From assembly GCA_944392585.1 (NCBI GenBank), contig CALXXA010000020.1:1-32224 (forward strand): 32,224 nt of DNA, given 5' to 3'. The notes beneath the pieces are model-generated. The model worked only from the letters and a program-made list of their open reading frames with translations. It was not told the DNA's origin and ran no database searches. This document shows, in pieces, positions 8,467 to 10,572 of the stretch; positions within the stretch are counted from its first letter, which is position 1; each line of letters starts with the position of its first letter. Both the position numbers and the translations under genes were made by a program. This DNA comes from an uncultured Alphaproteobacteria bacterium. GTDB lineage: Bacteria; Pseudomonadota; Alphaproteobacteria; CAAHEQ01; UBA3637.

Positions 8467-9204
8467 TCAGAACAGACTTAAGAAAATTCTGATTATTTTC
8501 CTTGAGAATCTATAATACTTCCTTTGAGGATATTTTTTTAATAATTGAGCTTTCAATACTGCCTTATGATGTTTTTGTTGTTGCTTGTTTCTTGATTCCG
8601 TTTCATTTTTTATTCTATAGAAAAATAAAAGCTCCGAGACTTTATAAATTTTAAGATTATGCCTTAAAACCATATTTAACCATAAGTCATAATCCTCAAG
8701 TCCGAGTAAAAAATTTTCATCATATCCCCCTGCTTTCATAAAATCGGATTTTCTAAATAAAGCAGAATTTATTAAACAATTATTTATAGCTAAATGATAT
8801 TTAGACGGAGATTTTAAAAATAATTCTCCCTTCTCTTCTCCAAATTTCATAACTCTGGAAGTTATAATATCCCCTTTATTGTTAATGATCGCCTCAAAAA
8901 GCTTTTCTAAACAGTTCGGAGATATTTTATCATCTGCATCCAATGGGTAGATATATTGTCCGGATGCCTGTCTTATCGCATTATTTCTAGAAAAAATGAC
9001 CCCTTTATTTTCCTGATTAATTAACTTAGAATTCTTATATTTATCTACATACCTTTGAATAAGCTCTAAAGAATTATCTTCCGATCCATCATTGACAATA
9101 ATAACTTCATAATCCTTAAATGTTTGCATTAAAACAGAACCCAGGCATTCTCTGATATATTGAGCTTGATTATAGCAAGGTATAATAATAGAAATCATAG
9201 ACAT
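8467..9204 (-). CDS. Family 2 glycosyltransferase (GT-A)
   Basis: A 245-residue GT2 enzyme. It starts with SIIIPCYNQAQYIRECLGSV, has the nucleotide-binding NDGS (38-41), the metal-binding DxD-type motif DADD (89-92) and the acceptor-side ED motif in GLEDYDLW. These enzymes transfer a sugar from a nucleotide-sugar donor; donor and acceptor cannot be read from the sequence, but capsule, lipopolysaccharide or glycan synthesis is likely. It lacks a membrane segment. AAGGAAAAA lies about 10 bases before the start. It follows the next glycosyltransferase by 3 bases, so the two are co-transcribed. Its last codons contain a near copy of part of the leuA terminator (see findings). Confidence 0.87.
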   Translation of the reverse strand: MSMISIIIPCYNQAQYIRECLGSVLMQTFKDYEVIIVNDGSEDNSLELIQRYVDKYKNSKLINQENKGVIFSRNNAIRQASGQYIYPLDADDKISPNCLEKLFEAIINNKGDIITSRVMKFGEEKGELFLKSPSKYHLAINNCLINSALFRKSDFMKAGGYDENFLLGLEDYDLWLNMVLRHNLKIYKVSELLFFYRIKNETESRNKQQQKHHKAVLKAQLLKKYPQRKYYRFSRKIIRIFLSLF

Positions 9205-9207
9205 ATT

Positions 9208-10068
9208 TTACTTTTTCCTTATCAAGAAAACAGGGATGATCGCCAAAAGAAGAACTATTATTTTATCTCGAACAATCTTAAATTTGATAAATGGAATTTT
9301 TGGAAAAATATTAATATCCACAAATCTATTCCCTCCTAAAAGGCTTCCTTTAAAATATAAATATGGATATTTATTCGCCGCGAAGCATTTACATAATATG
9401 TCAGCATTTATCATTTTCGCCTTTTGAAGATGAGAAGTATTCCTTTCATGACTTCTATATTTTACCAACACTTTTTGAATGTTATGAAACATTGTAACTT
9501 CAGCCAATTTTAGAAACAACATATAATCTTCCGCCGGAGAATACGCTTCCTCATATTTTATATGAAAAGCATCAAGCACAGATTTTCTTATCATCGCAGC
9601 CGTATGAGCAATGGCACAGCATTTCACCAAATCAATTTTGATATCTAAATTATTTTCAGGATGGCGTGAAATTTTCTTTTTCGGGAAAAATTCCAGCCAT
9701 CCACTTACCACTCCAACTTCCGGATGTGAATCCAAATATGCGACTTCATCTTCTAATCTTGTTGGCAAAGATATGTCATCATGATCAAAAACAGCTAAAT
9801 ATTCTCCTTTTGCCAAGTCTATTAGTTTATTACGAGATTGAGTAATCCCAATATTTACCTTGTTTTTAAAATAAATAATACGATTATCCCGATAAGACAT
9901 AACAATCTTCTCACGATTGTCATCAGGCGCATCATCTAAAATCAAGAACTCAAAATCGGAAAAAGTCTGTTTTAAGATACTTTCAATGGCTTCACGTAAA
10001 TAAATCTCCTGTGTTTTATAAACGGGCATTAGAACAGAAACTTTAGGACAACAATCTGATTTCATCAT
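9208..10068 (-). CDS. Family 2 glycosyltransferase with hydrophobic C-terminus
   Basis: A 286-residue GT2 enzyme with VSVLMPVYKTQEIYLREAIE, an LDDAPDD donor-site segment (44-50), DHDD (95-98) as the metal-binding motif and SPAEDYMLFLKLAE as the ED region. The C-terminus is hydrophobic (IIVLLLAIIPVFLI) and then basic, suggesting membrane anchoring. The start at 10068 (ATGATG) is chosen over a TTG six codons upstream because GAGGAG lies 10 bases before it. It is the first gene of a two-gene unit. A structured region of about 290 bases ends 7 bases upstream and overlaps the ribosome-binding site, so expression may depend on it. The acceptor sugar is unknown. Confidence 0.86.
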   Translation of the reverse strand: MMKSDCCPKVSVLMPVYKTQEIYLREAIESILKQTFSDFEFLILDDAPDDNREKIVMSYRDNRIIYFKNKVNIGITQSRNKLIDLAKGEYLAVFDHDDISLPTRLEDEVAYLDSHPEVGVVSGWLEFFPKKKISRHPENNLDIKIDLVKCCAIAHTAAMIRKSVLDAFHIKYEEAYSPAEDYMLFLKLAEVTMFHNIQKVLVKYRSHERNTSHLQKAKMINADILCKCFAANKYPYLYFKGSLLGGNRFVDINIFPKIPFIKFKIVRDKIIVLLLAIIPVFLIRKK

Positions 10069-10074
10069 AGTTTT

Positions 10075-10361
10075 AACTCTCCTCAAGTAAAAGAACCACC
10101 TGAGAAGGTGGTCGGGAGAGTTCGTAAACTACTACATACCTAGTCCCTTAAGTCTTTAAAAATTATCTCAAAAGATAATTTTCTGAACATACACTTAAAG
10201 CTCCCCGACCTTAAAAGCGGGGATATATTGTCAAAGTGCTTTTTCAGCACATTAACTTATGGCGTTATATCAAACACCAGTATGTAGTCAGGACTTACGA
10301 CAGCCCCGTACCTTAACAGGCACTTAGCTTGAACCTTATTGTTCAAACCTACTTAAGAGTT
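10075..10361 (-). ncRNA. Putative structured RNA upstream of the glycosyltransferases, family not recognised
   Basis: No open frame explains this stretch, yet it is more GC-rich than its flank and full of paired segments. Read on the minus strand, in order: near-terminal repeat AACTCTTAAGTA (10361-10350); hairpins at 10346-10329, 10323-10308, 10278-10261, 10250-10236, 10222-10203 and 10182-10159; and a final 7-bp hairpin ACCACCT/AGGTGGT at 10112-10095 followed by TTCTTTT. ACTACATACT (10288-10279) can pair with GGTATGTAGT (10140-10131). AGTCC (10295-10291) with GGACT (10146-10142) would form a pseudoknot across it. The end (10089-10075) pairs imperfectly with the beginning and includes the GAGGAG ribosome site. 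It could be a trans-acting RNA, a cis-regulatory leader, or an orphan transposon-associated guide RNA (HEARO/omega type). 6S, tmRNA, SRP and RNase P RNA signatures were not seen. Confidence 0.62.
10089..10112 (-). terminator. Terminator-like hairpin at the 3' end of the structured RNA
   Basis: On the minus strand ACCACCT, loop TCTC, AGGTGGT, then TTCTTTT. It lies just before the ribosome site of the glycosyltransferase gene, so it may end the RNA or act as an attenuator. Confidence 0.5.
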
Positions 10362-10572
10362 ATCATAATAATATCGTAAAAGCAAGAGATTTTATTTTAA
10401 GAATCAAAATATTATTTGTATTAAAATGAATTTTAAATGTATTTTCAAAATATATATGTATTTCTCTATTTATAAAAATACCGCGACTATTGAAACAAGA
10501 CAGAGACTCCGATTTAAAATTTAGGAGACAAATTATCTTAAAGAAGAAAGAATTATAAATTTCTTAGATTCG

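Follow-up and report, generated by a model that had tools for sequence, protein, structure and literature searches.

The closest described system is the c4-icd-ant leader of phages P1 and P7 (C4, RF01695; its a1-b1 flank, RF03163). The phage P1 record annotates, in this order, a1, b1, C4 RNA (77 nt), a2 and b2, and then icd/ant, and P1 C4 folds into a GGU...ACC junction that carries b' in the P3 loop and a' in the joining strand J3/1. For C4, processing by RNase P at the GGW start of helix P1, masking of the ribosome binding site (RBS) and the roles of the a' and b' loops have been described (PMC5320573). The isrK model (RF01394) scores 35 bits on the phage P1 c4 leader; in IsrK-orf45-anrP of Gifsy-1, a leader holds the antirepressor mRNA inactive and a 5' piece relieves this in trans (PMC4825925), an arrangement that resembles the leaders described below, although IsrK activates in trans and its model does not match them. 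The C4-like Group 1 sRNAs of Acinetobacter baumannii share with our leaders the many copies per genome, the variable recognition loop and the GGW processing start, but they are of the Rfam C4 type, belong to another lineage and have targets reported as unknown (PMC5320573). Another RNA, sRNA-Xcc1 (RF02221), was identified as an 88-nt RNA by Northern/RACE (PMC2996969). In Rfam, clan CL00128 includes C4, and sRNA-Xcc1 is placed in no clan. We looked in the literature for a C4-like leader in Alphaproteobacteria and found none.

The window, that is, the whole 32,224-nt stretch of DNA analysed, comes from an uncultured alphaproteobacterium of lineage UBA3637. A preliminary description had placed a structured RNA, beyond what chance would produce, at 10075-10361, and this was borne out: the minus strand (10361-10075) has a minimum free energy of -106 kcal/mol, compared with -68.7 ± 4.6 for dinucleotide shuffles (z -8.1, 0/200), and the plus strand folds less strongly (z -4.6). 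The stretch is a genuine structured RNA, the 5' leader of a glycosyltransferase mRNA, and the option of a cis-regulatory leader raised in that description is supported. Its parts are collected in Table 1, where it can be seen that the 5' strand of P1 has a second partner just upstream of itself (Palt). The two glycosyltransferase ORFs are likely co-transcribed. Elsewhere in the window, positions 3-380 hold a pilin-like N-terminal fragment; in relatives, pilin-like genes bear such leaders.

Table 1. Features of the leader and of the genes that follow it (window coordinates).
Feature	Position	Strand	Basis or remark
-10-like box TATGAT	10362..10367	-	sequence; at leader's edge
5' terminal segment AACTCTTAAGTA	10350..10361	-	alternative pairing with RBS region, pair probability 0.4-0.5; window-specific
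5' hairpin Pa	10327..10349	-	folding of minus strand
Hairpin Pb (GUGCC..GGUAC)	10308..10323	-	conserved in class A
Hairpin Pc, loop = a1 (CGUAA 10295-10299), complementary to J3/1	10290..10307	-	
b1, 10-bp partner of P3 loop	10279..10288	-	pair probability ~0.95
Palt 5' strand UCCCCG, alternative hairpin sequestering P1 5'	10218..10223	-	pair probability 0.86-1.0
P1 5' strand GGUCGGGGAG	10201..10210	-	alignment; GGW = predicted RNase P cut at 10210
P2 stem with conserved internal loop GUAUGUUCAG / UUAAAGA	10146..10200	-	covariation
P3 loop, b' (GGUAUGUAGU)	10131..10140	-	hypervariable in relatives
J3/1, a' (UUACG)	10123..10127	-	complementary to a1
P1 3' strand CUCUCCCGACC	10110..10120	-	with 10115-10122 AACUCUCC = anti-RBS
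ACC overhang and terminator-like hairpin ACCACCU-UCUC-AGGUGGU	10089..10112	-	short U run
Predicted mature C4-like antisense RNA (inferred)	10108..10210	-	R1 match
Antisense target, RBS GGAGAGUU to start codon	10067..10086	-	18 bp with 10132-10112, -18.8 kcal/mol
Glycosyltransferase family 2, controlled gene	9208..10068	-	PF00535, E 8e-26; ATG at 10068 or 10065
Second glycosyltransferase-like ORF	8467..9204	-	same direction, 3 bp after first gene

Two of the checks recommended in the preliminary description concern matches to Rfam families and copies elsewhere. Rfam 15 gave nothing at gathering score for the window and nothing of note at E ≤ 10; the C4 model (RF01695) has no match in 9990-10450 at E ≤ 10, and the sRNA-Xcc1 model has none in the window and none above its cut-off of 53 bits in any genome of the family. 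Blastn reveals no other full copy in the genome from which the window comes; in its family, 17 of 43 genomes have homologues. Eighteen sequences from this family search and one faecal scaffold were aligned over the conserved 3' domain, and a covariance model, R1, was made from these 19 sequences. R1 matches the window at 10092-10210 (90 bits) and gives 72 matches in 32/43 family genomes, with up to 18 in one; across the class Alphaproteobacteria it matches 32 of the 385 genomes sampled, a lower bound given the strict filters.

The genome with 18 leaders (G030, UBA3637; e.g., L027, L034, L040, L045, L054, and L077) measures 1.1 Mb, and many of its copies lie within a few hundred bases of contig ends, so they lie in or beside repeats; the b1/P3-loop sequences differ among those of the copies that were compared. 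The gut genomes that carry leaders of class A also carry a subclass, class B (weak RF02221 matches, e.g., L184 and L188), which has the same design and precedes lipoprotein and pilin genes. One of these, L188 (G000:C46:39341-39427), belongs to the same genome as the window and precedes a lipoprotein-like gene, and there GAACATCC faces GGATGTTC at the RBS. A pattern scan of GTDB contigs returned, among the matches listed, gut alphaproteobacterial MAGs, Rickettsiales MAGs, and Paracoccus, and 188 plasmids, of which 152 are typed as conjugative, carry relatives of the Paracoccus copy; most of them belong to Agrobacterium and Rhizobium. Class A leaders L067 and L090 are in MAGs labelled Gastranaerophilales and Erysipelotrichaceae, and these are probably mis-binned alphaproteobacterial contigs. 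An IMG/VR scan for the class A core had 0 matches, and class A is therefore not a common phage element. An unannotated faecal scaffold named 'Bacteriophage sp.' (L003, MT835859.1) has an XRE regulator preceded by a class A leader; since IMG/VR has no exact match to the core, this scaffold may be bacterial rather than phage.

At the leader's edge, relatives carry TTGACA-17-TATACT/TACACT where the window has TATGAT, and the -35 is weak in the window copy; promoter scoring across the leaders shows a modest excess (7.3 vs 5.8), clustered 150-160 nt before P1. The ATGA that had been taken for an IS-type tetramer is simply the end of this -10-like box (10367-10362). The associated proposal, that the stretch is an orphan IS200/IS605 or IscB element with a HEARO/omega RNA, is highly implausible. 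Such an element would suit the richness in hairpins, the many copies in UBA3637 and the apparent portability of the leader: family homologues of the window glycosyltransferase (49-55% identical) are without it, and R1 has no match at 11 other loci with homologues of this gene, so that the leader is a separable module. However, a promoter occupies the left edge, base pairs covary with the RBS, blastn finds no second copy, and HEARO/omega RNA was rejected as a candidate on finding no RF02033 match at E ≤ 10 and no IscB/TnpB ORF in the window. A search for RRXRR (IscB-type) proteins found none in the 43 family genomes, the controls of the same search being also without a match.

The third recommended check, covariation, supports the fold. 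Over 79 distinct sequences, 95.7% of P1-P2 cells are paired, 19/27 pairs have changed on both sides, and double-change cells number 297, compared with 76 after shuffling (0/500), and slid-partner controls collapse; this alignment was fitted to the model and favours it, whereas the P3-loop and permutation tests are independent of it. GGW stands at the start of P1 in 121/122 elements. The 10-bp long-range helix described earlier (10288-10279 with 10140-10131) is the pairing of b1 with the P3 loop, and an equivalent of at least 7 bp, formed with a segment ~50-100 nt upstream of P1, exists in 108 of 122 elements with 98 different sequences; the pairing has therefore been kept while its sequence has almost wholly changed. 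The suspected crossing 5-bp helix corresponds to CGUAA of the 5' flank (10299-10295) with UUACG (10127-10123), and this block a covaries in relatives. Only the near-terminal repeat AACTCTTAAGTA / TACTTGAGGAGAGTT fared less well: it is present in the sequence, but pairing of the leader's 5' end with the RBS has no significant signal across relatives and looks specific to the window.

For the permutation tests, partners were exchanged among leaders (5000 permutations), with the 98 leaders dereplicated to 52. The pairing of b1 with the P3 loop averages -12.4 kcal/mol vs -8.0 ± 0.3 permuted, and that of a1 with J3/1 -7.9 vs -5.8 ± 0.2 (0/5000 for both). The antisense strand pairs with the RBS at -10.4 vs -8.8 ± 0.3 kcal/mol (0/5000), or -11.0 vs -9.2 ± 0.2 among the 98 leaders before dereplication (0/5000). 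Part of this signal is generic, as CUCUCC fits any Shine-Dalgarno sequence; with CUCUCC removed, the 52 leaders still give -6.5 vs -5.5 ± 0.3 (0/5000). The full antisense fits its own RBS better than it fits neighbouring genes at the locus (p 5e-13). Complementarity between the P3 loop and the RBS is marginal in gut class A (z -2.3 to -2.9), the RBS being matched instead by the 3' side of P3, J3/1 and the 3' strand of P1. The P3 loop has no signal against the gene's coding start or 5' UTR. In the window, the pairing with the RBS extends into the start codon by two bases, pairing of the antisense strand with the 5' flank is worth -32.4 kcal/mol, and a search for a third b1 copy with a role found only scattered one-mismatch matches. 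In the 13-member plasmid set, pairing with the RBS passes the permutation test and pairing with the 5' flank is no better than permuted, perhaps as a result of a wrong slice or of high relatedness.

The same double complementarity can be found around sRNA-Xcc1. A Bosea plasmid copy of our leaders scores 32 bits with the sRNA-Xcc1 model (E 0.0012), below the cut-off of 53, and R1 matches sRNA-Xcc1 loci L226 (E 3e-5) and L223 (0.009). At most of the ~30 RF02221-positive loci, the 5' flank and the downstream RBS region each have complementarity to the strand that runs from the P3 loop to J3/1; L221, for instance, reads CUAAGAAAC..CACACAG before the RNA, CUGUGUG..GUUUCUUA within it, and CUAAGAAAG..CACACAGAGG after it, beside ATG. 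For bona fide sRNA-Xcc1 loci, permutation gives -27.2 vs -20.1 ± 0.7 for the 5' flank and -19.3 vs -14.1 ± 0.6 for the RBS (0/5000 each). The genes that follow include Bro-N, KilA-N, P22-type antirepressor, Rha, and SymE. Across L217-L246, an sRNA-Xcc1 locus is often the leader of a phage antirepressor or SymE gene and shows dual complementarity of the C4 kind. No isrK or c4-a1b1 modules were found at sRNA-Xcc1 loci; the link between C4 and sRNA-Xcc1 is therefore one of anatomy and not of model. The junction, the leader layout and the 5' and RBS pairings are common to sRNA-Xcc1 and the leaders here, but sRNA-Xcc1 has been described as a trans-acting sRNA, and the genes that follow it are for the most part phage antirepressors, SymE or unknown.

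One should then ask whether our leaders are also trans-acting sRNAs with unlinked targets, their proximity to genes being incidental. We find this rather unlikely. The 88-nt species of sRNA-Xcc1 would be a precedent, and 60/107 gut copies have a terminator-like hairpin of their own, overlapping P1 by ACC; yet a Shine-Dalgarno sequence and ORF start follow within 160 nt of P1 in 101/118 elements (median distance 44 nt), and the complementarity is directed at the RBS of that very gene. Trans action may be an extra role beside cis control rather than an alternative to it.

The genes downstream in gut genomes encode OMP barrels, opacity-type porins, surface antigens, lipoproteins, pilins, glycosyltransferases, and HTH regulators. 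By a simple heuristic, 48 of 86 have signal-peptide or lipobox-like starts and 6 more are pilin-like, compared with 61/348 signal/lipobox-like starts for other ORFs of the same loci. On plasmids, the leaders precede TraM, HTH regulators, DUF2285, and small ORFs beside repC or relaxase genes, and also operons or regions leading to AHL synthase; the position of L163, L164, L170, and L174 before TraM or AHL-synthase operons suggests antisense-type control of quorum sensing or conjugation. This range of genes, which have no metabolite or pathway in common, bears on whether the leader is a ligand-sensing riboswitch, with P1-P2-P3 as the aptamer and Palt, the terminator and the anti-RBS as the expression platform. 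The conserved unpaired GUAUGUUCAG/UUAAAGA, the mutually exclusive Palt and P1 helices and the presence of a terminator-like hairpin together with an anti-RBS are what one would look for in such a device, but the helix, hypervariable and particular to each element, and the C4/antirepressor setting in which relatives occur fit antisense rather than ligand binding, and we regard a riboswitch as quite improbable.

Compared with C4, the leaders have the same order of promoter, a1, b1, antisense, target RBS and gene, and the same GGW...ACC three-way junction of P1, P2, and P3. Their P3 loop (b') and J3/1 (a') are complementary to a1-b1 in the 5' flank, though no better than permuted in the small plasmid set, and through J3/1 and the P1 3' strand their antisense can pair with the RBS of the gene that follows. 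They differ in that sequence models match in neither direction (R1 has no match to phage P1 C4), in a longer 5' domain, Palt and the overlapping terminator-like hairpin, and, in the window, in a glycosyltransferase gene (PF00535) with no downstream antirepressor operon. The sequences show the conserved fold and the complementarities of P3 loop with b1, J3/1 with a1, and antisense with RBS and start codon, the partners being matched within each element. The leaders are best read as an alphaproteobacterial form of the C4-type self-antisense leader that has been put to use on non-phage genes, and since the Rfam models of C4 and sRNA-Xcc1 both miss the window copy, it is best to call the variant new. 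It is likely that the leader works like that of c4-icd-ant, as a self-antisense silencer of its own gene. The preliminary description was thus partly supported: its leader option stands, its HEARO option does not, and the C4-type antisense design was missed.

We infer transcription, RNase P processing, and repression as the sign of regulation, as follows. A promoter at the edge would give a single transcript of a1, b1, antisense RNA (P1-P2-P3), RBS, and gene, in which RNase P would cut at the GGU that begins P1 and a terminator or nuclease would make the 3' end near ACC. The antisense strand, whether released or still attached, would pair with the RBS and repress translation, unless kept from it by a1-b1 pairing or by the folding of Palt. 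In gut copies, the hairpin overlapping P1 would add premature termination. An RNA ending near the 10095-10112 hairpin, as once proposed, is compatible with this, since a short antisense RNA is what C4-type leaders set free; the hairpin is intact, though its U run is short. Each leader would be a gene-specific, self-made silencer, and its state might be flipped by RNA from other copies, by helicases or RNA chaperones, or by read-through.

More broadly, and more tentatively, C4-type self-antisense leaders, familiar from phage immunity, could form one broad superfamily that takes in C4, sRNA-Xcc1 and the alphaproteobacterial leaders. In Alphaproteobacteria they would have been captured repeatedly as gene-specific silencers of surface genes and of conjugation and quorum-sensing regulators, and as many as 18 copies per cell would be insulated or cross-wired by their hypervariable address helices. 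If true, an orphan 'sRNA' family and a curiosity of phage immunity would become widespread single-gene silencing, with gut-bacterial surface antigens and the plasmid transfer regulators of Agrobacterium and Rhizobium among the silenced genes. As the rule (address helix plus anti-RBS) is legible in the sequence, it yields testable predictions for hundreds of loci, and it may also offer a design for orthogonal RNA switches.
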